Of a stretch of 64,000 bases of DNA, positions 4,830 through 23,320 are shown piece after piece. The DNA comes from Nitrospirota bacterium (GTDB taxonomy: Bacteria; JACPQY01). The position numbers were made by a program, and so were the translations under genes. A model generated the notes under the pieces. The model did not search any database. It was not told the DNA's origin and was given only the letters and a program-made list of their open reading frames with translations. Location of the stretch: positions 62,001-126,000 of the forward strand of contig JACPQY010000008.1 in the NCBI GenBank assembly GCA_016190245.1. Reading direction: 5' to 3'. Numbering within the stretch: position 1 is the first letter of the stretch; every line of letters begins with the position of its first letter.

Positions 4830-7702
4830 AAAGCATGAAAAGCACACCACCCGTTCCCCGCTTGGAGCCCGAGGTGACCGGTCCGATCCGGGTGCTCCTG
4901 CTCGAGGACGACGAGGACTTCCGCGTGTCCCTCGCGCTGCGCCTGCGCAAGAAAAACCTTACCGTGGTCGAAACCGCCGTGGCACCCGAGGCGATCGAAC
5001 AGCTCGGTAAGGTGGAGTTCGACGTCGTCATCTCCGACATCCGCCTGGGGGAAATGGACGGGATCGCGTTCCTGCGCGCGGTGAGGCGCGTGGTCCCCCG
5101 GCTGCCGGTCATCTTCCTGACCGGCTACCCCAGCGTGGAAACGGCCAAGGATGCCGTGGAGCTTCGCGCCCAGGCCTATCTCCTCAAGCCCCTCGACGAT
5201 CTCGACGAGCTGGTGGAACCTCTCCACCGCGCCGTCCGCCAGTACCGCCTCCAGATCGAGAACGAGAGGCTCGTTCGGGAACTGAAGGAATCGGAGGAGC
5301 GGTACCGCCAACTCTTCGAGGGGGCGCGGGACATCATCTACCTGGCGGGCCCCGACGGGCGGCTCAAGCTCGTCAATCGGAGGGTGGAAGACGTGACCGG
5401 CTTCGCGGTGTCCGAGTTGGTGGGACAGCCGGTCGAAAGGCTCCTGACCGCGGCCGAAGGGCAAACCGAGCTCTCCCGACCCAATCCGGACGGCCTCGTG
5501 GAGGTGGTGCTGATGACTCGGAACGGAGCGCGATTCGACTGCGAGTTGAGCGTCACGGAGGTCCGGAACGGCTCGACACTCGTGGGCGTTCATGGCATCC
5601 TCCGCGACGTGACCGAGCGCCGGGCCCTGGAGGAGACCTGGAAGCGGTACGCCTTCATCGTGGACGCCTCGAGGGACATCATGGCGCTCGTGGACCGCGG
5701 ATTCCTCTGCGTGGCGGCCAACGAGGCCTACTGTCGCGCCCACGGCAAGCCCCGAGAGGAGATCGTCGGCCGTTCCCTGGTGGACGCCTGGAACCAGAAT
5801 GGCGTGGCCCACACCCTCCGGCGCCATTTGGACGCCTGTTTCGAAGGCCGCTCCTCGGAGTGCGAGATCGCGTACCGCTTCGAGGGGTTCGGCCTCCGGC
5901 AGCTCAGCGTGAACTGCTACCCTTACACGTCCGCCGCCGGGGTCACTCACGCCGCGGTCATGATGCACGACATCACGGAGCGGAAGCAGGCGGAGGGTGC
6001 CTTGCGCGAGAGCGAAGAGCGCTACGCCCTGGCCGTCCGGGGGGCGAACGACGGGCTGTGGGATTGGGATCTCAGAACCGAGGCCATGTATTTCTCTCCC
6101 CGCTGGAAGACGATGCTGGGGTATGCCGAAGAAGAAATCGGCAGCCGGCCGGACGAGTGGTTCAGGCGTGTGCACCCGACGGAGCTTGAACACGTCCGCG
6201 TGGCCCTCAGCACGCATCTGAAAGGCTACACCCCTCACTTCGAGAGCGAACACCGCATTCGCCACAAGGACGGCACCTACCGCTGGGTGCTCAGCCGGGG
6301 GCTCGCCGTTCGCGACGGCAAGGACAAGGCCTACCGTGTCTGTGGCTCGCAGACGGACATCACCCCCCGCAAGCAAGTGGAGCAGCAGCTCGTCCACGAC
6401 GCCTTCCACGACGCCCTCACCGGCATGCCCAACCGCGCGCTCTTCCTGGATCGCCTGAGCCAGTCGTGCAAGCGGCTCAAGCGGCGGCGGGATTACATGT
6501 TTGCCGTCGTCTTCCTCGATCTCGACAGATTCAAAGTCGTCAACGACAGCCTCGGTCACATGGTGGGGGACCAGCTCCTCGTGGCCGTCGCGCGGCGCCT
6601 CGAGCGCTGCCTCCGGCCCGGTGATACCGTCGCGCGCCTGGGCGGCGACGAATTCGGCATCCTCCTCGACGACATCGGAGACGTGAAGGACGCCACCCGC
6701 GTGGTGGAACGGATCCAAAACCAGCTCGCCCATCCGCTGCGCCTCAAAGAGCAGGAGGTCTTCACGAGCGCAAGCATCGGGATCGCGCTCAGTGCCGGAG
6801 GCTACGAGCGGCCCGAGGAACTCCTGCGCGACGCCGATACGGCCATGTACCGCGCCAAGGCCCTCGGCAAGGCGCGCCACGAGGTATTCGACAAGGGGAT
6901 GCACGAGCACGCCGTGGCCCAGCTCGAGTTGGAAACGGATCTGCGCCGCGCCCTGGAGCGCGAGGAACTCAGGCTCGAATACCAGCCCATCGTCGCCCTC
7001 CCCTCGGGCCGCCTCGTCGGGTTCGAGGCGCTGGCGAGGTGGAGACACCCGACGCGCGGGAGCATTCCACCGGCACATTTCATCCCCGTGGCGGAAGAGA
7101 CCGGCCTCATCGTGCCCATCGGCCGATGGGTCCTGCGCGAGGCCTGCCGCCGCATGCGCGAGTGGCAATCGGCCGCACAGGCGCGCGAGCGGCTCTCCAT
7201 CAGCGTCAACCTCTCCAGCAAGCAATTCCCGCGCACCAATCTTGGGGGGGAGATCAAGCGGATTCTGGAGGAAACAGGACTCGATCCGCGCTGCCTGAAA
7301 CTGGAGATTACCGAGAGCGTGATCATGGAAAACGAGGAATCGGCGACCCGGACGCTCCTGGAGTTGCGCGACATGGACATCGACCTGTGCATTGACGACT
7401 TCGGAACGGGCTATTCCTCTCTAAGCAACCTCCACCGGCTTCCTATCACCACGCTCAAGATCGATCGCTCCTTCGTGGGCCGAATGGGGCCGACAGGCGA
7501 GAACTCCGAGATCGTGCGCGCGATCGTCACGCTGGCCCACAACCTGGGCATGAAGGTCGTGGCGGAAGGGATCGAGACCCGGGAGCAGGCCTCGTTGCTG
7601 GCGCGCCTCGAGTGCGAATACGGCCAGGGCTACTTCGTCTCGAAGCCGCTCGAGCAGCAGGGAGTTGAGGCGCTGCTCGCGCTGGGTGGCTGGTCCGCCT
7701 AG
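4826..7702 (+). CDS. Response regulator with PAS domains, GGDEF and EAL domains
   Basis: A 958-residue c-di-GMP signalling protein. It has an N-terminal receiver (Asp71 in SDIRLGEMD, Lys121 in LLKPLD), then three PAS/PAC modules at about 155-270, 275-385 and 395-515. A diguanylate cyclase domain with intact GGDEF (606-610) is preceded by the inhibitory-site RxxD (RPGD) five residues upstream, and an EAL phosphodiesterase domain (EAL at 734-736) follows. Both catalytic signatures are intact, so the protein could make and degrade c-di-GMP. It overlaps the double-kinase gene by 4 bp and is almost certainly its phosphorylation target. The final codons and the TAG stop lie in a perfect 16-bp palindrome, one copy of a dispersed repeat. 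Confidence 0.92.
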   Translation: MKSMKSTPPVPRLEPEVTGPIRVLLLEDDEDFRVSLALRLRKKNLTVVETAVAPEAIEQLGKVEFDVVISDIRLGEMDGIAFLRAVRRVVPRLPVIFLTGYPSVETAKDAVELRAQAYLLKPLDDLDELVEPLHRAVRQYRLQIENERLVRELKESEERYRQLFEGARDIIYLAGPDGRLKLVNRRVEDVTGFAVSELVGQPVERLLTAAEGQTELSRPNPDGLVEVVLMTRNGARFDCELSVTEVRNGSTLVGVHGILRDVTERRALEETWKRYAFIVDASRDIMALVDRGFLCVAANEAYCRAHGKPREEIVGRSLVDAWNQNGVAHTLRRHLDACFEGRSSECEIAYRFEGFGLRQLSVNCYPYTSAAGVTHAAVMMHDITERKQAEGALRESEERYALAVRGANDGLWDWDLRTEAMYFSPRWKTMLGYAEEEIGSRPDEWFRRVHPTELEHVRVALSTHLKGYTPHFESEHRIRHKDGTYRWVLSRGLAVRDGKDKAYRVCGSQTDITPRKQVEQQLVHDAFHDALTGMPNRALFLDRLSQSCKRLKRRRDYMFAVVFLDLDRFKVVNDSLGHMVGDQLLVAVARRLERCLRPGDTVARLGGDEFGILLDDIGDVKDATRVVERIQNQLAHPLRLKEQEVFTSASIGIALSAGGYERPEELLRDADTAMYRAKALGKARHEVFDKGMHEHAVAQLELETDLRRALEREELRLEYQPIVALPSGRLVGFEALARWRHPTRGSIPPAHFIPVAEETGLIVPIGRWVLREACRRMREWQSAAQARERLSISVNLSSKQFPRTNLGGEIKRILEETGLDPRCLKLEITESVIMENEESATRTLLELRDMDIDLCIDDFGTGYSSLSNLHRLPITTLKIDRSFVGRMGPTGENSEIVRAIVTLAHNLGMKVVAEGIETREQASLLARLECEYGQGYFVSKPLEQQGVEALLALGGWSA

Positions 7703-7708
7703 GCGGAC
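7693..7708. repeat. Dispersed palindrome, copy 1 (over a stop codon)
   Basis: Perfect 16-bp palindrome GTCCGCCTAGGCGGAC. It supplies the last sense codons and the TAG stop of the GGDEF/EAL gene. It belongs to the GTCCGCC-NN-GGCGGAC family found six times in the window. It could fold as a short hairpin at the 3' end of the transcript, but no T-run follows. Confidence 0.8.
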
Positions 7709-7758
7709 TGGTCCTGAGCGATTCGGCGCGGTAGACTGCGCTCAAGAATGGTGACGCT

Positions 7759-8823
7759 GTGACCCGCGAAGGCCTCCTCATCTATGGGGCCTACGGCTAC
7801 ACGGGCGAGCTGGTGGCCCGGTGGGCGGTACGCAAGGGACTTCGTCCGCTCCTTGCCGGACGCGATGGCGCGAAGGTGCGACTGCTTGCCGAGACCCTCG
7901 GCCTGGAGAGCCTCGCGTTCCCTCTCGATGATGCCGCGGCGCTCTCGGACGCCGTGGCGAAGGTCCGCGTTGTTGTCCACTGCGCCGGCCCCTTCATCCA
8001 CACCTCGGAGCTTGTGGCGGGGGCCTGTCTCAAACAGGGCGCGCACTATCTCGACATCACCGGGGAGGTGGACGTGTTCGAGGCTCTGGCCGCGAGGGAT
8101 GCGGAGGCGCGCGAGGCCGGCGTGATGCTCATGCCGGGGGTTGGTTTCGACGTCGTGCCCTCGGATTGCCTCGCGGTTCATCTCCGCAACCGTCTCCCCT
8201 CTGCCACCCACTTGGCCCTCGCGTTCAGCGGCCTCGGCGCCGGGTTCTCGCGTGGCACGCTCACGACGATGGTGGAGCACATGCATCGCGGCGGTCTCGC
8301 GCGGCAGCGCGGCGCTCTCGTGCCCGTGCCGCCCGCGTGGAAAACGCGGCGGATCGACTTCGGATTGAGCTCGCCCCTGGAGGCTGTCACGCTGCCATGG
8401 GGGGATCTCTCCGCGGCCTTCGTCAGCACGGGGATCCCGAACATCGAGACCTACGCGGTGCTCCCCGGCCCCATGCGCCTCGCCCTGCAGGCGGGCCGCC
8501 TGGCGGGACCGTTGCTCAAGTCGAACACCCTGCGCGAGGTCCTCAAGATGGGCGTCCGCGCCGGCCAGGCCGGGCCGACCGAGGCCGAGCGGGCGCGCGG
8601 ATTCAGCGTCCTGTGGGGAGAGGCCTCCGACGAACACACGGGCCTGCGCGTGGTCTCCCGCCTGCGCACCCCGGAGGGCTACACGCTCACGGCGATGACG
8701 GCGGTCCTGATCGCGCAGAAGGTTGTGGCGGGCGAGGCCCCCGCGGGTTTCCAGACCCCCGCGAAAGCCTACGGTCCGGACCTGATCCTCGAATTCGAAG
8801 GCATCGAACGCACCGACGTGTAG
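7759..8823 (+). CDS. Saccharopine dehydrogenase-like / trans-acting enoyl reductase family oxidoreductase
   Basis: A 354-residue Rossmann-fold protein starting with GTG; the only nearby ATG (7748) runs into a stop after four codons. The N terminus LLIYGAYGYTGELVAR is the NAD(P)-binding loop typical of the saccharopine dehydrogenase-like family, and CAGPF and HYLDITGE follow in the expected order. Bacterial members include trans-acting enoyl reductases for lipid synthesis and many uncharacterised oxidoreductases, so the substrate is unknown. The gap to the signalling gene upstream is 56 bp. The next gene is convergent, so it is probably last in the plus-strand run. Confidence 0.8.
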   Translation: MTREGLLIYGAYGYTGELVARWAVRKGLRPLLAGRDGAKVRLLAETLGLESLAFPLDDAAALSDAVAKVRVVVHCAGPFIHTSELVAGACLKQGAHYLDITGEVDVFEALAARDAEAREAGVMLMPGVGFDVVPSDCLAVHLRNRLPSATHLALAFSGLGAGFSRGTLTTMVEHMHRGGLARQRGALVPVPPAWKTRRIDFGLSSPLEAVTLPWGDLSAAFVSTGIPNIETYAVLPGPMRLALQAGRLAGPLLKSNTLREVLKMGVRAGQAGPTEAERARGFSVLWGEASDEHTGLRVVSRLRTPEGYTLTAMTAVLIAQKVVAGEAPAGFQTPAKAYGPDLILEFEGIERTDV

Positions 8824-15336: not shown

Positions 15337-16539
15337 TCACGGCTGCAGATCCTTGAGCTGCCTCATCAGGAAGACATCCAGGATGGGGTTGCCGGTTCCG
15401 CTCCCGTTGCCGCCGACGATGGTGGTGGGCACCTTGATGTCTTTGAGCGCGTTGGCCACGCCGATGAGCGTCTCCTTCTTCATTTGCAGCTTCAACTCCA
15501 GCGAGTTGTCCGCCCTCGCCAGCGCCGCGCGCCCCTCCGCTTCCTTGATGGCCGCAATCTTCTTCCCCTCCGCCTCCTCCACGCGCTGCCGCTTTTCGAG
15601 CTGGGCTTGCTCGAAACGGATCGCCGCGACCTCTCGTTCCTTCTCCGCCCCGATCCTCGCCACCTCCTTTTCCGTCTCCGCCCGGATTCTGGCCTCCAGC
15701 TTCTTGTGCTCCTCCTGCGCTTTGGCCTCCGCCAACAGCTTCTCCTCCTCGGCGCGAGCCGTGAGTGTTTCCTGCTTCAGCTTCTCCGCGGCCAGCGACG
15801 CATTGTTCCGCTGCTGTTCGAGGAGCCGGTGCTCGTCGAGCTTGGCCTGGGTCTGGCCATCGTACTCGATCGACTTGAGCGTGAACTCGCCGATGGTGAT
15901 GCCGAACTTGCTGTTCAGGCCGGGTAGCCGCCTGGGTGTTTCACCGTCGGAGGCGGGAAGCATGGCCACGTTCCCGTCCACGATCTTCCTCTCGAACGCA
16001 ACGGGACCGTTCTGGAGCGAGTCCAGAACGTCACGGATGAGCCGTCCCCTCTCCCGCACGCTGTCGCCGCTCTCGTAGGAAGAGGCCACGAGGTTCAGGA
16101 CACTGTTCACGTGCGCCCTAATCATCCTCTTCAGGACGGCCTCGCTGCGGGCCGTCTGGACGATGCGTTTCATGTTCTCGTCGTCGGCGGGGAGGGTGTA
16201 GCGCACGCTGCCGTTGATGGCGCCTTCGCCGTTGTCCTTGAAGATCACCGCGATGGCTTCTTCAACCTTCTTCTTGTCCTTCTTGCGCTCCACGTAGGTG
16301 TCCGTGAAACCGACCGTGTCCGAAACCTGAAACTCGGTGACCTTTCCGAACGGACCCTTCCAGTACAGGCCCGGGGTGGAGACGACCTCCAGGTTGCCGC
16401 TCGGCCACTTCTGAAGGACATGGTGGTAGCCGGCGGTGTTGTTGCCGAACAGCCAGAAGGCCGACAGGAGCGCCACCACCAGGGCGACCCCGAGCCTGAG
16501 CACGGGTTGTTTGCTGAGCGCGATTCGTTCCGAGTTCAT
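15337..16539 (-). CDS. SPFH/band 7 (flotillin/prohibitin-like) membrane protein
   Basis: A 400-residue protein with one N-terminal membrane helix (about 15-33), a band 7/SPFH domain to about residue 230, and a long charged coiled coil (about 235-345) rich in Ala, Glu and Lys. A Gly-rich tail ends in FLMRQLKDLQP. Such proteins form membrane-associated oligomeric rings and scaffold or protect membrane complexes. It begins 26 bp after the FGE-fold gene with a strong GAGGAGG six bases before ATG. It is therefore probably the fifth gene of the amt operon and may scaffold its membrane proteins; that link is inferred from position only. Confidence 0.85.
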   Translation of the reverse strand: MNSERIALSKQPVLRLGVALVVALLSAFWLFGNNTAGYHHVLQKWPSGNLEVVSTPGLYWKGPFGKVTEFQVSDTVGFTDTYVERKKDKKKVEEAIAVIFKDNGEGAINGSVRYTLPADDENMKRIVQTARSEAVLKRMIRAHVNSVLNLVASSYESGDSVRERGRLIRDVLDSLQNGPVAFERKIVDGNVAMLPASDGETPRRLPGLNSKFGITIGEFTLKSIEYDGQTQAKLDEHRLLEQQRNNASLAAEKLKQETLTARAEEEKLLAEAKAQEEHKKLEARIRAETEKEVARIGAEKEREVAAIRFEQAQLEKRQRVEEAEGKKIAAIKEAEGRAALARADNSLELKLQMKKETLIGVANALKDIKVPTTIVGGNGSGTGNPILDVFLMRQLKDLQP

Positions 16540-16565
16540 CTCAACCTCCTCTCACACTTCGATCT

Positions 16566-17447
16566 TCACGGCCCGGCGGATACGCAGCGAAATCCCAGAT
16601 CGTCCCGGGTCGCGTTCGGCGCGAGCCGTTGCCTGGCGGAAACGCGCAGCTCGTGATCCGCACTTTTCCAGGATCCCCCCCGGACGACCTTCAGATGACG
16701 GTTGATACGAACGTGAGGATTGTCCTCGTCCGCTTCCCGGTAGAGTTCGTAGCCGTCCGCCGTCCATTCCGAAACATTTCCCGCCATGTCATTGACGCCG
16801 AACCCGTTCATGGCGTAGCTGCCGATGCGTATGGCGCCCGGCGGGATATGCCCTTCCGCTCCCCCCCCCCGCACGAGGTGGGGCTGGAAGACCGGCCCCC
16901 AGGGATAGTCCATGGCGTCCGCCCCGCCACGGCCCGCATATTCCCATTGTGCCTCGGTGGGGAGCGCCCGACGGGCCCACTCCGCGTACGCCGCCGCCGC
17001 GTGCCAGCTCACGTACACGACCGGGTGGCTTCCCTTCCCGGCGGGGAACTCAAGGCCGTCCCAGTCCGCGAGATAGTCAAGGTCGGCCAGATCGGTTTCG
17101 ACGCTGCCCTTTCTCCAGGCCGGAGTCTCTTCCACGAAGCGGCGATACTGCTCGTACGTGACTTCGTAGCGCGCCATCTCGAACGGGCGGAGGGTGACGG
17201 CATGGACGGGCCTCTCGTCGAAGAAACCGCCGTCGCTCCCCATCAGAAAACGACCGCCGGGGATCTCGACCATCTCCGAGTCGTCCGATGCGGGTGTGGG
17301 GGCGAGCGGCGCGTGAAGGCGCTTGATCGCGACCACCGCCGCAATCAGCAGGAGGGCGCCCGCAGGTATGACCAGGCGCCTCTTCGCGAACAAGGCCGCG
17401 ATCTCCCGCAGCCCGGCTCGATCCGCCGCTTGGGCCATCGTCGTCAT
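16566..17447 (-). CDS. Membrane-anchored FGE/SUMF1-fold protein lacking catalytic cysteines
   Basis: A 293-residue protein with one N-terminal membrane anchor (about residues 28-47) and a formylglycine-generating-enzyme-type domain. Signatures are MVEIPGGRFLMGSDGG, PVHAVTLRPFEMARYEVTYEQY, LPTEAQWEYAGRGG, NVSEWTADGY, VVRGGSWKS and LGFRCV. Oxygen-dependent FGE needs a Cys pair shortly after the RGGSW motif. Here that stretch reads KSADHELRVSARQR with no cysteine, so sulfatase maturation is unlikely. Other FGE-fold proteins act as electron-transfer accessories, ligand binders or EgtB-like enzymes. It overlaps the octahaem cytochrome stop by 4 bp, implying a periplasmic accessory role for that complex. 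A ten-base tract (16861-16870) lies in its coding region. Confidence 0.85.
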   Translation of the reverse strand: MTTMAQAADRAGLREIAALFAKRRLVIPAGALLLIAAVVAIKRLHAPLAPTPASDDSEMVEIPGGRFLMGSDGGFFDERPVHAVTLRPFEMARYEVTYEQYRRFVEETPAWRKGSVETDLADLDYLADWDGLEFPAGKGSHPVVYVSWHAAAAYAEWARRALPTEAQWEYAGRGGADAMDYPWGPVFQPHLVRGGGAEGHIPPGAIRIGSYAMNGFGVNDMAGNVSEWTADGYELYREADEDNPHVRINRHLKVVRGGSWKSADHELRVSARQRLAPNATRDDLGFRCVSAGP

Positions 17448-18709
17448 TTCTCGGCAAACCTGGTCCTGTCCTTTTGTTCGCGCAGCTCGCGCATCATGTG
17501 TTCCAGCTCGAGGCGATGCTTGGCGAGCTCATAGAAGCCGTGCCACTGGGTGAAATCCGGCCCCATCATGGAAGCGCCCATTCGGGCCCGGCGCCCCTCG
17601 TGGTGCCAGAACTCGAAGAACTTGAACTCGATCTCCTCGTCGAACTTCTCCTCCGTCAAGTATCCCCCCTTGTACAACTGATCCATCGCCTCCTTGATCG
17701 GTTTGAAGTAGTCGTCGTTGTAAAGGCCGATGACGTTGTCGAATTGGACATAGTGGTTCTCCACCCAGTTTTTCGAGTGGCACGAGAGGCACACCTTCTT
17801 CATCCGCGTTCGCTTGCCTTCCCAGTCATCCGTCTTGATGGTGAGAGGATGTTCCAGTTCCCAGGAGAGGCGGTCACTTACGTTGTGGGTGGTCTCCAGT
17901 TCGCCGAGGCCCGACATGTGGCACGTGGCGCACGTGGGCGCCCGGTAGTGTTGGGTGTCCCACGCCTTCCCGGCGACCTCCATGTCCCAGGACCGGCCTT
18001 CCGACGCGTAAATGACCCCGTGCTTCGATTCCATGTAGATCTCGTACTGCGGATGGTCGGGGCCCATGTGGCAGGTGCCGCACGTTTCCGGTTTCCTCGC
18101 TTCGGCCACGGAGAACCGATGGCGGGTGTGACAAGCGGAGCACGACCCGCGGCTGCCGTCCGGGTTGATGCGGCCGATACCGCCGTTCGGCCACGTCTGG
18201 GGATCGAGCTTCCCGTTCTCGGCCTTGACGAGCGAACCGTGGCACTTCTCGCATCCCATGACGGCGGCGGCTTTGCCTTCCACTTTGTAGGCGAGGGCAT
18301 CGTCGCCGGCTCTGTCTCCCTCGAGGTTCAGGAGGAATGAAACCGCCTTGGCGTGGAGCGACTGATTGAACTCGGCCACCTGCCTCGGATGGCAGCGGGA
18401 ACAGTCCTTGGGACTGACCACGGCCGAGATGTAGGCCCCTTCGTGCGCCCTGGCGTCCGGGTCGGAAGGCGCCGCCTCGTGGCAGTCGATGCATGTGACC
18501 TCGGCCTTCGCATGAAGGCTTCTCTCCCAATCGTGGACGATGCCGGGGGACGAGCGCTCGTGGCAGACCTCGCATTTCTCCGACACGATCTTCTGGTGTG
18601 CGAACCGGTCGCGACTGTCCGCCGAGGCGGACCGCAAGGGAGTCGCCAGGGCCGCGAGGAGGGCGAGCAGAAGTTGCGACAAGACAATGAGTGCGGTTCG
18701 GGTCGGCAT
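17444..18709 (-). CDS. Octahaem c-type cytochrome, hydroxylamine oxidoreductase-like
   Basis: A 421-residue periplasmic protein. A signal peptide ends near SASA (about residue 30). Eight CxxCH motifs follow in order (CEVCH, CIDCH, CSRCH, CEKCH, CSACH, CGTCH, CATCH, CLSCH), with extra His residues as distal ligands. All eight are canonical, unlike NrfA or octahaem nitrite reductases, which carry a CxxCK haem. The C-terminal helical part (GLYNDDYFKP, MGPDFTQWHGFYE) matches the HAO family. Where a Tyr cross-links the catalytic haem in oxidising HAO, this protein seems to have Phe (GPDFTQW), so a reductive role (nitrite to hydroxylamine or ammonia) is plausible. The start at 18709 was chosen at the signal peptide; the frame is open upstream but overlaps the cytochrome gene before it. 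The tetrahaem quinol dehydrogenase upstream is its likely electron donor. Confidence 0.88.
   Translation of the reverse strand: MPTRTALIVLSQLLLALLAALATPLRSASADSRDRFAHQKIVSEKCEVCHERSSPGIVHDWERSLHAKAEVTCIDCHEAAPSDPDARAHEGAYISAVVSPKDCSRCHPRQVAEFNQSLHAKAVSFLLNLEGDRAGDDALAYKVEGKAAAVMGCEKCHGSLVKAENGKLDPQTWPNGGIGRINPDGSRGSCSACHTRHRFSVAEARKPETCGTCHMGPDHPQYEIYMESKHGVIYASEGRSWDMEVAGKAWDTQHYRAPTCATCHMSGLGELETTHNVSDRLSWELEHPLTIKTDDWEGKRTRMKKVCLSCHSKNWVENHYVQFDNVIGLYNDDYFKPIKEAMDQLYKGGYLTEEKFDEEIEFKFFEFWHHEGRRARMGASMMGPDFTQWHGFYELAKHRLELEHMMRELREQKDRTRFAEK
18617..18632. repeat. Dispersed palindrome, copy 2 (in signal-peptide coding region)
   Basis: GTCCGCC-GA-GGCGGAC, a perfect 7-2-7 inverted repeat within the first codons of the octahaem cytochrome gene. 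It could form an mRNA hairpin near the ribosome binding region. Confidence 0.75.
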
Positions 18710-18969
18710 CCAGCCTTCGCAGCCGGAGCTGCTCCCGCCTTCGCGACTCGTGCTACGCAGCGAGCCTACTCCGCCGACCCCTGCGCGTACCTTGGCCCAG
18801 GAGGGCCTGGTCCCGCGCGGTGTGGCCCTGTCCGCCGCGGCGGAGAAGGCAGGGCAATGTGACCGTGGCCCGCCTGCCGGGGCGGCGCGGGCAGGTAGGG
18901 GCGGCCTGGGCCGCCCGGTTGACAGGATAGGCACGCCTATTCCGTCACACCGCCCACGTACGAAGGCAC
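18710..18969. other. Palindrome-rich gap inside the amt-cytochrome operon
   Basis: About 260 bp separate two cytochrome genes of an otherwise overlapping operon. The gap holds ATAGGC-AC-GCCTAT (18927-18940), GGGCGGCC-TG-GGCCGCCC (18899-18916) and TCCGCCGCGGCGGA (18831-18844, palindrome copy 3). I see no gene. It looks like an extragenic repeat insertion or an mRNA-processing/stability region that could set different levels of the two cytochromes. Confidence 0.6.
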
Positions 18970-19500
18970 TCATGTCCGGTCCCCCTTGTCCACGTGGACG
19001 AGGTTCTCGTGGCAGTCCAGGCACGTGGAGTTCGCTCGACCGTTCAGGAACGCGCGGTGGGCGATCAGGCCGCCCTTGGGCAGCGCCGGAGGAAGGAGAT
19101 CCTTGTGGCATTCCCGACAGGAATCGGGGTGAATGTTCCGCACGGCCTGCCGCCTCCATTCCTCGCGATCCATTTCGGCGGGGTCCGACAGGACGTGCAC
19201 GACCGAGTCTTTCACGCCCTGCATGATCTTGGCTCTCCACCGGTCGACCGTGCCCGGCGGAAGATGGCAGTCGGCGCACTCCGCCACGACGCCGCGGTCG
19301 TTCACCGCATGGGATGACTCCCGGTACTGCCGGTAGGATTCGCCCATTTCGTGGCACGAGACGCAGAAACGCGTCGTGGACGAATAGTGGAAGGACCAGA
19401 GGGTGACCCCGTAGGAGCCGGCGACAAAAGCGGTCGTGGCCGCTGCGATCACGGCGACTTGTCGCTTGCCGGGCCACAATTTCGGCGAGATCGTCTTCAT
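18970..19500 (-). CDS. NapC/NrfH-type tetrahaem cytochrome c quinol dehydrogenase
   Basis: A 176-residue protein with one N-terminal membrane anchor (about residues 15-35) and four haem motifs: CVSCH followed by EM (the NrfH-type Met ligand), CADCH, CRECH and CLDCH. Proteins of this family oxidise membrane quinol and pass electrons to periplasmic reductases such as NrfA or HAO-type octahaem cytochromes (CycB/NrfH role). The ATG overlaps the ammonium channel stop by 4 bp, so translation is coupled. The octahaem gene follows after a 260-bp repeat-rich gap. Confidence 0.9.
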   Translation of the reverse strand: MKTISPKLWPGKRQVAVIAAATTAFVAGSYGVTLWSFHYSSTTRFCVSCHEMGESYRQYRESSHAVNDRGVVAECADCHLPPGTVDRWRAKIMQGVKDSVVHVLSDPAEMDREEWRRQAVRNIHPDSCRECHKDLLPPALPKGGLIAHRAFLNGRANSTCLDCHENLVHVDKGDRT

Positions 19501-20822
19501 TGATACTTGGTCGTTTGCAATGGGAATTCGGGGTAGGCGGAAGCGGAGTGCTCCGAGTAGTCCAACCCCGCGAGTTCGTTTTCCCTGTCGACTCTCAGCC
19601 CGATGGCCATCGCAATCAGCCTGAAGACAAAGTAGGAAAGGCCGAAAGCCCAGATGAAGGCGAGGGCGGAGCCGAGGAGTTGGATCAGGATGTTCTTGGG
19701 GCTGAAGAGCTCGCCCGTCTTGAAGAACCCGACGGCGATCGTCCCCCAGACGCCACAGACGCCGTGGACGGATACGGCGCCAACCGGATCATCCATGCGT
19801 CGCCTCTCGAGGAACAGCACCGAATGAACCACCACGATGCCGGCCGCGATGCCGATGACCACCGCCCACACGGGTTCCACGGTGGCGCAACCAGCCGTGA
19901 TGCCCACGAGCCCGCCGAGCGTGCCGTTCAGTGTCATCCCGACGTCGGGCTTTCCGAACTTGAACCAGGAGGTGACCATGCTGGACACGGCGGCGGCCGC
20001 GCCGGCCAGGGTGGTGTTGATGAGCACCTGCGCGATCTTCCCGTCCCCGGAGAGCGTGTTGCCCGCGTTGAATCCGTACCAGCCGAACCACAGGATCAGG
20101 GTTCCGAGCGCCGCGAGGGGGAGGTTGTGGCCGGGAAGCGGGGATGCCCTCCCGTCGTCTCTGAATTTCCCGATTCTCGGCCCGAGCACGAGCGCACCGG
20201 CGAGTCCGGCCCAGCCTCCAATGGCGTGAATCACGGTCGAGCCGGCGAAATCCACGAAACCCAGGTTGGAAAGCCATCCGTCCCCGTTGTAACTCCCGCC
20301 CCACACCCAACTGCCGAAGACCGGGTAGATGAACGTGGACATGGCGACCGTGAAAAGGAGCGAACCGACAAAGCGCGTCCGCTCCGCCATCGCGCCTGAA
20401 ACGATCGCGGCAACGGAGGACACAAACACAAGCTGGTACATCCAGAACGCGAACAGCCAGGGGTCCTGGTTCTGGGCGTAGTCGTGCAGAAAGAAACCGT
20501 CCGTGCCGAAGAGCCCGTTCGTCGTTCCGAACATCAGGCCGAACCCGAATGCCCAGAAGGCGATGGCACTCACGGCGAAGTCCATGATGTTTTTCATGAT
20601 CGCGTTGACGGCGCTTTTCGCCCGCGTGAATCCGATCTCGACCAGGCTGAAGCCCGCCTTCATGAAGAAGACCAGCACGGTGGCCACGCAGATCCACACG
20701 ATGTCGAGGTTGGCCTGGACGTCTTCCGATGTGGTGGGGTTGGCCGCGCGGGCGGCATGGGCTGCATCCGCCGCGAGGAGCCATGCGGCAAGAATCCACC
20801 CGAAGACGGCGGGACGACTCAT
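19497..20822 (-). CDS. amt: Ammonium channel/transporter (Amt/MEP/Rh family)
   Basis: A 441-residue integral membrane protein. It has a signal-like first helix ending at AHA, then eleven transmembrane helices of the Amt fold. The pore histidine pair is present (STVIHAIGG and AVSVHGVCG), as are AGFSLVEIGF, DFAGSTVIH and GFNAG. The C-terminal tail has the typical ENELAGLDYSEHSASAY segment that communicates with GlnK. No glnK gene is adjacent. ATG 20822 was chosen because Amt similarity begins there and an upstream sigma54 promoter gives a transcript start near 21116, ruling out the longer open frame to 21188. It is the first gene of a probable five-gene operon with the cytochromes. Confidence 0.93.
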   Translation of the reverse strand: MSRPAVFGWILAAWLLAADAAHAARAANPTTSEDVQANLDIVWICVATVLVFFMKAGFSLVEIGFTRAKSAVNAIMKNIMDFAVSAIAFWAFGFGLMFGTTNGLFGTDGFFLHDYAQNQDPWLFAFWMYQLVFVSSVAAIVSGAMAERTRFVGSLLFTVAMSTFIYPVFGSWVWGGSYNGDGWLSNLGFVDFAGSTVIHAIGGWAGLAGALVLGPRIGKFRDDGRASPLPGHNLPLAALGTLILWFGWYGFNAGNTLSGDGKIAQVLINTTLAGAAAAVSSMVTSWFKFGKPDVGMTLNGTLGGLVGITAGCATVEPVWAVVIGIAAGIVVVHSVLFLERRRMDDPVGAVSVHGVCGVWGTIAVGFFKTGELFSPKNILIQLLGSALAFIWAFGLSYFVFRLIAMAIGLRVDRENELAGLDYSEHSASAYPEFPLQTTKYQ

Positions 20823-20867
20823 CGCCCCGAGTCGCCCAAGCACGATGCCCTTGGGGTTCTTGATTCC

Positions 20868-20889
20868 GTCCCCGCCGGTCGGCGGGGAC
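20868..20889 (-). promoter_or_regulatory. Leader hairpin 46 bp before amt
   Basis: GTCCCCGCC-GGTC-GGCGGGGAC is a perfect 9-bp stem with a 4-base loop in the predicted long 5' leader of the amt operon. No U-run follows, so an attenuator is not proven; it may control stability or translation. Confidence 0.5.
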
Positions 20890-20974
20890 TTCGCTCGAAC
20901 AATACCGCGCTGTGTGCAGGCCACGCCGCTCCGCCGCACTCGGAGTGTGCAGGCTTCGGGCACTCGAAGACGTG

Positions 20975-21054
20975 TCCTGGCCTGCTTTCCTTTCGTGGCA
21001 CGTGGACCTTGCTCTCGAAGCCGCAAGGTCCACGGGCTTCTTGCCCAGGTGTCG
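20975..21054. repeat. Dispersed ~80-bp repeat, copy A
   Basis: Nearly identical to 63098-63177. It contains an internal hairpin GTGGACCTTG / CAAGGTCCAC (10-bp stem). It lies in the leader between the sigma54 promoter and amt. A reverse-oriented, internally deleted relative is at 39845-39910. The family resembles non-autonomous extragenic elements. Confidence 0.75.
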
Positions 21055-21125
21055 AGAAGCTCATTGTCCTGGGTGTTCGATGGGTTGGGCATCGTGCAAT
21101 CCGAATCATCATCGACAATGGTGCG

Positions 21126-21143
21126 TTGCAAGGCCCGTGCCAG
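21126..21143 (-). promoter_or_regulatory. Sigma54 (-24/-12) promoter for the amt operon
   Basis: Minus strand reads CTGGCACGGGCCTTGCAA, an exact match to the consensus TGGCACG-N4-TTGC with GG and GC separated by ten bases (GG at 21141/21140, GC at 21129/21128). The predicted transcript start is near 21116, giving a ~294-nt leader before amt. The upstream neighbour encodes a sigma54 activator. Confidence 0.85.
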
Positions 21144-21181: not shown

Positions 21182-21198
21182 CTGTCACGGGGTGACAG
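21182..21198. promoter_or_regulatory. Candidate activator-binding palindrome (UAS)
   Basis: CTGTCAC-GGG-GTGACAG, a perfect 7-3-7 inverted repeat centred about 74 bp upstream of the predicted start. It contains TGT-N9-ACA, one base short of the classical NifA site TGT-N10-ACA. It is a likely operator for the adjacent NifA-like activator; binding is inferred. Confidence 0.55.
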
Positions 21199-21241: not shown

Positions 21242-22924
21242 CTATGCGACCGAAACGTCGCGCACGGCTACGTGGTACCGTCGGATCCGATAGCGGAGCT
21301 GGCGCGGAGACATGCCGAGTTTCCTGGCCGCGGCCGCCTGGTTCCCCTTCGTTTCGCGTAGCGCCTCCGCGATGACCCGGCGCTCGTAGGACTGGATGGG
21401 TGGGAGGGCCGCGCCCTCACCACCCTGCTCGGCGGCCGTTTCGCCTGGGGGAACCGAGGCAGGGTTTGAAAGCGGGGCCGCACTCGGCCCCGGCATCAGC
21501 CGCCCGTCCGTGGGACGGTCTGGTGGGCCGAGTACGTACGCCCTGCAAGGCTCCGCGCAAAGCGTACGGCCTTCCTGCGTCGGCAGGAGGAGTCGCTCGG
21601 CCTCGATCGAGCCCCCCGGCAGGAGCACGGCGAGTCGCTCGGCCAGGTTTTCGAGTTCGCGGATGTTGCCCGGCCAGGCGTGCGCCTCGAGCTTGCGAAG
21701 GGCCGCCGGTGTCCACCTGAGATTCTTGCCGTACTCCTTCGCGAAATGGCGCAGGAAGTGCTCCGCAAGCAGCGGGATGTCCTCCCGGCGGTCGCGCAGC
21801 GGCGGGAGGACGATGGGGACCACGTTGAGCCGATAGTAGAGGTCCTCGCGGAACTCACTCCGCGCGACCATCTGCTCGAGATTCCGGTTCGTGGCCGCGA
21901 TGATGCGGACGTCCACACGCACCCCGTTTGTTCCGCCGACCCGCTCGAAGGCGCGCTCTTGGAGGAACCGGAGAAGCTTGACCTGCGTGGCCGGTGGGAT
22001 TTCGGCGATCTCGTCGAGGAAGAGCGTGCCCCCGTTCGCCTCTTCGAGAAAACCCCGCTTGCGCTCGTGGGCGCCGGTGAAGGCGCCCTTCTCGTGCCCG
22101 AACAGGCCGGTCTCCAGGAGCGTCTCGGGAATGGCGGCGCAGACGACTTTCACGAAGGGCCGGGTGGAGCGATGGCCGTCCGCATGGAGGGCGCGCGCGA
22201 CCAACTCCTTCCCGGTTCCGCTCTCGCCCCGGATGAGGACCGTCGCCCGGCTGTTCCGAGCCCGCTCGATGGCCTCGAAGACGGGGGCCATGCTGGGGCT
22301 GTCGCCCAGCATGTCTTCGGCACTGCGGCGGCGAGTCCGTCCTCGCCCGGACACGCGGGGGGGGGGCGAGACCCCGTTGGCGACGGAAGGGAGTTCGCCC
22401 GCGTTCAACCACGCATGACCGAGAAACCGGGCAAGCGTTCGCAAAACCCGCATTTCGTCCCGCAGCGGGCCGTGACGCTCGACCATTCGATCCACGCCGA
22501 GCGCACCGACCACTTCACTCCCCGCCCGAATCGGCACGCTGAGGATGGCCATCCTCGTGCCGGGGTCCCATCCGCTCGCACGCGCGACCCGGCACAAGTC
22601 CGGCTCTTGCGAGAGATCGGGCACTACAAACGGACACCCCGTCTTCACAACCGTCTCCATGATCTGCCGGCCGACGGGACAGGCCGGGTCGCCGCCCGCC
22701 CCCAGAGGACTCAGCCCGCAGGAGCAACGGACTCGAACGATTTCATCCGTGTCCGATTTCGACGCGTAGCAGGCCCGGCTGAAACCGAGAAAATCCACGA
22801 GGACGCCGAGAAAAAGATTGAGTCGTCGGTCGAACGGCTCAGGCCCGAGAAGGATTCCAGCCGCCTCGTGGAGGGTGGAAACCTCCCGGGCTCTTCGATC
22901 CAACTCCCGACGTAGCTCAAGCAC
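21242..22924 (-). CDS. NifA-like sigma54-dependent transcriptional activator (GAF-AAA+-Fis HTH)
   Basis: About 560 residues from the preferred GTG at 22924. An N-terminal GAF sensory domain resembles NifA (GCPFVVPDLSQ, ILSVPIRAGSEVVGALGVDR). The AAA+ domain has Walker A GESGTGKE, the sigma54-contact GAFTGA, Walker B GTLFLDEI and PGNIRELEN. A linker with LCAEPC (a CxxxC pair) precedes a Fis-type helix-turn-helix (GNQAAAARKLGMSPRQLRYR). The frame is open to an ATG at 23206, but a sigma54 promoter at 22941-22956 predicts transcription from about 22930, and GAF similarity starts just after 22924. The start is therefore uncertain (GTG 22924 or TTG 22903). A ten-base tract (22357-22366) lies in the GAF-AAA linker. 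It probably activates the amt-cytochrome operon downstream. Confidence 0.88.
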   Translation of the reverse strand: MLELRRELDRRAREVSTLHEAAGILLGPEPFDRRLNLFLGVLVDFLGFSRACYASKSDTDEIVRVRCSCGLSPLGAGGDPACPVGRQIMETVVKTGCPFVVPDLSQEPDLCRVARASGWDPGTRMAILSVPIRAGSEVVGALGVDRMVERHGPLRDEMRVLRTLARFLGHAWLNAGELPSVANGVSPPPRVSGRGRTRRRSAEDMLGDSPSMAPVFEAIERARNSRATVLIRGESGTGKELVARALHADGHRSTRPFVKVVCAAIPETLLETGLFGHEKGAFTGAHERKRGFLEEANGGTLFLDEIAEIPPATQVKLLRFLQERAFERVGGTNGVRVDVRIIAATNRNLEQMVARSEFREDLYYRLNVVPIVLPPLRDRREDIPLLAEHFLRHFAKEYGKNLRWTPAALRKLEAHAWPGNIRELENLAERLAVLLPGGSIEAERLLLPTQEGRTLCAEPCRAYVLGPPDRPTDGRLMPGPSAAPLSNPASVPPGETAAEQGGEGAALPPIQSYERRVIAEALRETKGNQAAAARKLGMSPRQLRYRIRRYHVAVRDVSVA

Positions 22925-22940
22925 TCCGAAAACACTACAC

Positions 22941-22956
22941 CGCAACTGCCGTGCCA
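22941..22956 (-). promoter_or_regulatory. Sigma54 (-24/-12) promoter for the NifA-like gene
   Basis: Minus strand TGGCACGGCAGTTGCG matches TGGCACG-N4-TTGC with exact GG-N10-GC spacing. The predicted start is near 22930, only a few bases before the GTG at 22924, so the mRNA would be nearly leaderless or use TTG 22903. A perfect NtrC-type box lies about 124 bp upstream. Confidence 0.7.
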
Positions 22957-23045
22957 CACGCGCGAGAGGCTTCGGGTGTAACTCCAGGTGATGTTTTGGG
23001 ATTGGCAACGGCCGCTCGAGACAAAGGGCCTGGCCCGCGGACAGA

Positions 23046-23062
23046 TGCACCCGCTTGGTGCA
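23046..23062. promoter_or_regulatory. NtrC-type binding box
   Basis: TGCACC-CGCTT-GGTGCA is a perfect inverted repeat equal to the enteric NtrC consensus TGCACC-N5-GGTGCA. It is centred ~124 bp upstream of the sigma54 start of the NifA-like gene and ~267 bp upstream of the divergent cyclodeaminase-family start. It implies nitrogen-limitation control; an NtrC gene itself is not in the window. Confidence 0.65.
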
Positions 23063-23095
23063 TGGCGCACAAACCTGCGGCAAGCGATTCGCCTC

Positions 23096-23105
23096 GGGGG
23101 GGGGG
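23096..23105. repeat. Ten-base G tract in divergent promoter region
   Basis: Homopolymer G10 between the NtrC-type box and the start of the cyclodeaminase-family gene, one of ten such exactly ten-base tracts. The rest of the ~390-bp divergent region holds no gene that I can support. Confidence 0.7.
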
Positions 23106-23176
23106 TGAACGCGCAGGCCGATAAACGCCCCAGTTCTCCGAACTGCTGCTTCCTTGGATTGCTTCTCCGCCGGCTG

Positions 23177-23192
23177 GTCCGCCACGGCGGAC
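23177..23192. repeat. Dispersed palindrome, copy 4
   Basis: GTCCGCC-AC-GGCGGAC in the divergent region between the NifA-like and cyclodeaminase-family genes. Confidence 0.75.
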
Positions 23193-23320
23193 TGGCGGAT
23201 CGCCATGTGACGCCCCTCTCCTGTCGTCGCGAGCCCCGACTGGGCGCGGCGATCTCGCGTCAGGGCATTCCGGGCATCCGTCTTCGAGAACTTCCGGAAT
23301 CCGGGCTACAATCGGATGAG

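Follow-up and report, generated by a model that had tools for sequence, protein, structure and literature searches.

Why would a bacterium place the gene of an ammonium channel at the head of an operon that also encodes two multihaem cytochromes, an FGE-fold protein and an SPFH protein? The question is raised by positions 15337-20822 of the 64,000-nucleotide stretch of a Nitrospirota contig analyzed here (the window). We propose that this locus is a nitrogen-regulated operon that would reduce periplasmic nitrite, and probably also hydroxylamine, to ammonium and couple the reduction to ammonium uptake, a reading to which we assign a probability of roughly two in three. All five minus-strand open reading frames that the initial annotation had listed are present, and each matches the Pfam family under which it had been named:

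19497..20822, minus strand: amt, ammonium channel of the Amt type, 441 aa, at the head of the operon (Ammonium_transp, 1.4e-115; TIGR00836)
18970..19500, minus strand: NrfH/NapC-type tetrahaem membrane cytochrome, 176 aa (Cytochrom_NNT, PF03264, 2.9e-31)
18710..18969, minus strand: gap between nrfH and the octahaem gene that contains a repeat dispersed through the genome (26 matches there, counting this copy)
17444..18709, minus strand: HAO-like octahaem cytochrome c, 421 aa, with a signal-like N-terminal segment (Multi-haem_cyto, 3.6e-34; eight CxxCH motifs)
16566..17447, minus strand: FGE/SUMF1-fold protein, 293 aa, with an N-terminal hydrophobic segment (FGE-sulfatase, PF03781, 5.1e-55)
15337..16539, minus strand: SPFH/Band 7 protein, 400 aa, last gene of the operon (Band_7, PF01145, 5.3e-13)

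The earlier description of these genes as overlapping or nearly contiguous applies to most of the cluster, with 4-bp overlaps between amt and nrfH and between the octahaem and FGE genes, but not to nrfH and the octahaem gene, which are separated by 260 bp. A large share of this gap matches the dispersed repeat. Because the gap is missing in relatives, where the same junction measures −49 to +10 bp, it is probably a later insertion.

A gene order that recurs in distant genomes

In a genome scan, relatives of the octahaem protein (65 to 76% identical) were found in metagenome-assembled genomes (MAGs) of Planctomycetota, Kiritimatiellia and Nitrospinota. Mapping of open reading frames and BLAST matches recovered the full order amt-nrfH-octahaem-FGE-SPFH at six loci (L031, L033, L034, L035, L036 and L037) and, with amt cut by a contig end, at L038. 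A search of the phylum of genome G102 added a complete but more divergent cluster (L086, in genome G108), and the cut contigs L032 and L048 are consistent with the five-gene order. In total, the cluster is carried by nine genomes including that of the window (one with the contig-end-cut amt), and the eight others span at least three phyla. Besides the lineage of the window, which is little sampled, the nine represent Planctomycetota, Kiritimatiellia and Nitrospinota. The finding of these genes unlinked in relatives had been set beforehand as evidence against the proposal; they are linked there, and in the same order. The five-gene arrangement is not due to chance, as its order recurs in distant genomes.

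The gene trees are congruent, with the window grouping with L031, L033 and L034 in every one of them, and the pairwise distance matrices correlate between genes (r = 0.93-0.97). Because trees and distances agree, we conclude that the cluster has been passed on as one unit, by inheritance or transfer. Its distribution appears patchy: no octahaem match was found in G001, the only available genome of the window's family, which fits such a pattern, gene absences in MAGs (the genomes compared here) being soft calls. The FGE and SPFH genes are not always needed, because a related octahaem gene in genome G088 (L091/L039) has neither of them downstream and is followed instead by Amt, P-II and glutamine synthetase genes.

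Other arrangements were also seen. Between the octahaem gene of L091 and the Amt/P-II/GlnA genes lies a gene for a 268-aa protein with no family match (L091:6829-7635). A Planctomycetota MAG has a second octahaem gene, 46 to 48% identical, directly downstream of the cluster (L031:8281-9624), and at L094 of genome G043 an octahaem gene (7329-8794) stands in a differing arrangement, beside genes for a small NIR_SIR/4Fe-4S protein and a CBS-domain protein.

The cytochromes and their membrane partners

The central protein of the cluster belongs to the HAO-like octahaem cytochromes c, with eight CxxCH motifs and a PF13447 score of 118.7 bits (cut-off, 21.9). Its nearest solved chain, and best structural relative by sequence, is the octahaem cytochrome of Ignicoccus hospitalis (4qo5), which is archaeal and longer (521 residues versus 421); HAO, HOX and HDH come next. 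AlphaFold models were poor for both this protein (mean pLDDT, 44.9) and the FGE-fold protein (41.2).

In an alignment with anammox paralogues, His390 of the octahaem protein, placed by the conserved WHG motif, faces the Tyr of the oxidative enzymes. Counting along the alignment confirmed that this site is Tyr467 of NeHAO, which agrees with the earlier suggestion that the Tyr cross-link of HAO is absent; the C-terminal alignment with oxidative HAOs is weak in this region, and one or two columns are uncertain. His390 is invariant (9/9 aligned cluster members), and the divergent L086 protein also has the WHG motif. Position 387, which varies between Phe and Tyr, had been considered as the cross-link site and was rejected, since the alignment puts His390 there. 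A 2025 phylogenetic reconstruction of HAO-like enzymes associates His at the cross-link site with reductive enzymes and Tyr with oxidative ones (PMC12758564); because it has His at that site, the octahaem protein is assigned to the reductive type. In a 62-sequence tree, the cluster octahaem proteins form a clade of ten (support, 100/99), or of eleven (98/96) once the G088 protein is included. The genes of the sister octahaem clades adjoin Rieske and cytochrome b genes, and no such partner was found in the five-gene cluster.

The NrfH-like protein is a probable quinol dehydrogenase of the NrfH/NapC type. It has an N-terminal anchor and four haems, and its residues M52, K91 and D98, which are invariant across the cluster, align to M49, K82 and D89 of Desulfovibrio NrfH (2j7a), positions that we take to be the haem-1 Met and the quinol-site Lys and Asp. 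Its score with the NrfH equivalog TIGR03153 is 78 bits, below the curated cut-off of 134.2. In the Nitrospinota NrfH-like proteins (L032, L035-L038 and L086), the haem-1 motif is CX3CH, not CX2CH. The Amt protein scores 413.9 bits with TIGR00836 (cut-off, 343.3) and is 70 to 73% identical in relatives; its motifs with the pore Asp and His residues D191, H199 and H353 are invariant.

The last two proteins are the least expected members of the operon. The FGE-fold protein clearly belongs to its fold family (PF03781, 187.3 bits), and alignments with FGE structures and within the family show the copper-binding Cys pair replaced in 10/10 members. The protein had been called cysteine-less: the catalytic pair is indeed gone, but one Cys is left, in a C-terminal FRC motif. 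Given the loss of the catalytic pair, a role as a formylglycine-generating enzyme is very unlikely. The SPFH protein (Band_7, 49.8 bits; cut-off, 23.6) combines its Band_7 domain with one N-terminal hydrophobic segment and a long stretch rich in charge, and is 54 to 61% identical in most relatives. From their constant linkage to the cytochrome genes, we suggest that the two are most likely structural or assembly partners of the cytochromes.

Predicted nitrogen control and the genomic neighborhood

The following features lie upstream of amt:

20823..21126, minus strand: long 5′ leader of amt, strongly folded (fold z, −3.6; 0/200 shuffles equally stable)
21127..21142, minus strand: predicted sigma-54 promoter TGGCACGGGCCTTGCA, a perfect consensus about 305 bp upstream of amt
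21182..21198, no strand assigned: perfect palindrome CTGTCAC-N3-GTGACAG, a putative enhancer site, some 40 bp upstream of the −24 element
21242..23206, minus strand: NifA-like sigma-54 activator with GAF-AAA-HTH domains (PF00158, 4.4e-70; GAF_2, 2.5e-9)

The 11/11 score of the sigma-54 site was reached by no shuffled upstream region. Exact matches to the pattern occur twice in the window's genome, one before amt and the other some 60 bp ahead of a P-II gene that is followed by glnA, so that both precede nitrogen genes; a reversed control pattern occurs once genome-wide, and the count alone is therefore not significant. Among relatives, L031 has a perfect site 118 bp upstream of amt, L034 a 10/11 site and L033 a 9/11 site before the operon, and L036 only a 9/11 site; none was seen in L035 or in the short flank of L037. 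The initial annotation had placed the operon under nitrogen control, and the perfect site, its only exact counterpart before the P-II gene and glnA, and the sites in relatives speak for it; with the surrounding nitrogen genes, they make such control a well-supported prediction. The adjacent NifA-like activator is its likely regulator, with the palindrome standing between the activator gene and the promoter; its score with the nifA model (461 bits) is below the cut-off of 528.85. The leader includes a strong predicted hairpin, GTGGACCTTGC/GCAAGGTCCAC, with its arms within 20998-21037, and has no match in Rfam, which in this region placed only a tRNA above its gathering score.

Nitrogen genes also flank the cluster elsewhere. 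Genes for a porin, P-II and Amt lie downstream of it in the Nitrospinota locus L036, and glnA and an ANTAR response regulator gene lie upstream in the Nitrospinota locus L086. In Kiritimatiellia (L034 and genome G100), genes for a NapA-like molybdoenzyme and for NapG- and NapH-like proteins precede the cluster, and at L033 an Hcp gene is also found between such genes and the cluster.

Classical nitrite assimilation is cytoplasmic and uses sirohaem enzymes. The window's genome encodes one protein of the NirA/Sir family, which scores below every curated cut-off, and a cytoplasmic route to ammonium may therefore exist too. For this reason, we rejected the idea that the cluster is the exclusive route of nitrite assimilation. 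Canonical NarG and NapA were not found in the window's genome, which we count against our reading; the profiles for NapA and NarG lack the specificity to identify its nitrate reductase. Several catalytic subunits of the type II DMSO-reductase family are encoded side by side at another locus of this genome (L109, C47:10000-29999).

Proposed function, alternatives and known analogues

We propose that the NrfH-like protein would relay electrons from the quinol pool to the octahaem cytochrome, a putative reductive HAO-type enzyme of the periplasm that would convert nitrite, and probably hydroxylamine, to ammonium. Ammonium made beside the membrane would enter through the co-encoded Amt channel and be fixed by glutamine synthetase. 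The operon would be turned on from the sigma-54 promoter when nitrogen runs short, probably by the neighboring NifA-like activator, and the FGE-fold and SPFH proteins, each with one N-terminal membrane anchor, would hold or organize the cytochromes at the membrane. We infer the reaction of the octahaem protein from its family and context, and one observation counts against an ammonium product: in anammox bacteria, a characterized octahaem reductase from the same broad family produces NO, not ammonium (cited in PMC12758564). In a bolder version of the proposal, an SPFH membrane ring and the FGE-fold protein would bound a periplasmic site where the NrfH-octahaem pair releases ammonium at the mouth of Amt, a channelled nitrite-assimilation complex without precedent; we consider this version unlikely.

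The octahaem enzyme could instead stop at hydroxylamine, which Amt would import and cytoplasmic Hcp would convert to ammonium, as in a strict form of the reverse-HURM pathway proposed in Nautilia with HaoA, CycB, AmtB and Hcp (PMC3701875, PMC2628731). Hcp adjoins the cluster at L033 and has strong full-length matches in five genomes (G088, G098, G099, G100 and G101). However, no Hcp match was obtained in the window's genome, which is 84.8% complete, or in G001, G102 and G103, the matches in G104-G106 are weak or partial, and transport of hydroxylamine by Amt is unproven; we regard this pathway as rather unlikely here. Electron input of the Nap and NrfH types is typical of respiration, and the cluster could serve respiratory or detoxifying reduction of nitrite or NO, in anaerobic respiration or under nitrosative stress, with Amt recovering by-product ammonium. 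Such a role would agree with the Nap genes near the cluster in Kiritimatiellia and with a GAF-type activator that could sense NO, but amt is the first gene of the operon, and the sigma-54 site and the associated P-II and GlnA genes agree with nitrogen assimilation, which makes such a role quite improbable.

Oxidation of hydroxylamine or hydrazine, with electrons passing through the NrfH-like protein to quinone, reverses the direction of electron flow. The HAO family includes oxidative enzymes, the top curated model of the octahaem protein is hydrazine dehydrogenase (far below its cut-off), and CycB of the NrfH family is a quinone reductase (PMC2628731). With His in place of the cross-linking Tyr, we judge this oxidative HURM to be highly improbable.

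Ammonium-forming reduction coupled to uptake has close analogues. In Nitrospira, an HAO-type octahaem cytochrome (OCC/ONR) with a Rieske/cytochrome b partner adjoins amtB, glnA and P-II genes and is proposed to reduce nitrite to ammonium for assimilation with quinol as the electron source (PMC6311188, PMC5767232), and in N. japonica its transcripts are lower with added ammonium (PMC7522533). Like the present cluster, this module places an HAO-type octahaem protein beside an ammonium channel and nitrogen-assimilation genes, but its partner is Rieske/cytochrome b, whereas that of the cluster is NrfH. The reverse-HURM of Nautilia profundicola shares a Tyr-less HAO, an NrfH/NapC-type CycB, AmtB and Nap, proposed to cooperate (PMC3701875), but its genes are scattered, its intermediate is hydroxylamine and Hcp is required, while the cluster is one operon. 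The available text on either system makes no mention of the FGE-fold and SPFH proteins found here. As in NrfAH, an NrfH-type quinol dehydrogenase would feed a multihaem nitrite reductase, but the catalytic partner is the octahaem HAO-like protein instead of pentahaem NrfA, which was not found in the window's genome and was clear in G101 alone among the 12 genomes searched. The best reading is that the cluster is a variant of the Nitrospira module and of reverse-HURM, with NrfH and two extra membrane-anchored partners.

The initial annotation knew of no described system of this kind. For the exact five-gene set, this seems right as far as the open-access literature goes: no paper was found on SPFH together with octaheme or HAO (weak evidence of novelty), octaheme with formylglycine returned one unrelated review, and nirV with formylglycine returned nothing. 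It was too broad a statement in that the Nitrospira module and Nautilia reverse-HURM, which it left unnamed, are close functional analogues.

If our reading is true, periplasmic nitrite assimilation would exist in a self-contained form across several uncultured phyla, with an octahaem reductase and ammonium capture tied together in one transcription unit. FGE-fold proteins without catalytic cysteines and SPFH proteins, both widespread and often enigmatic, gain concrete, testable partners. Metagenomic HAO-like genes of this type would then be read as evidence of ammonium capture, not of nitrification.
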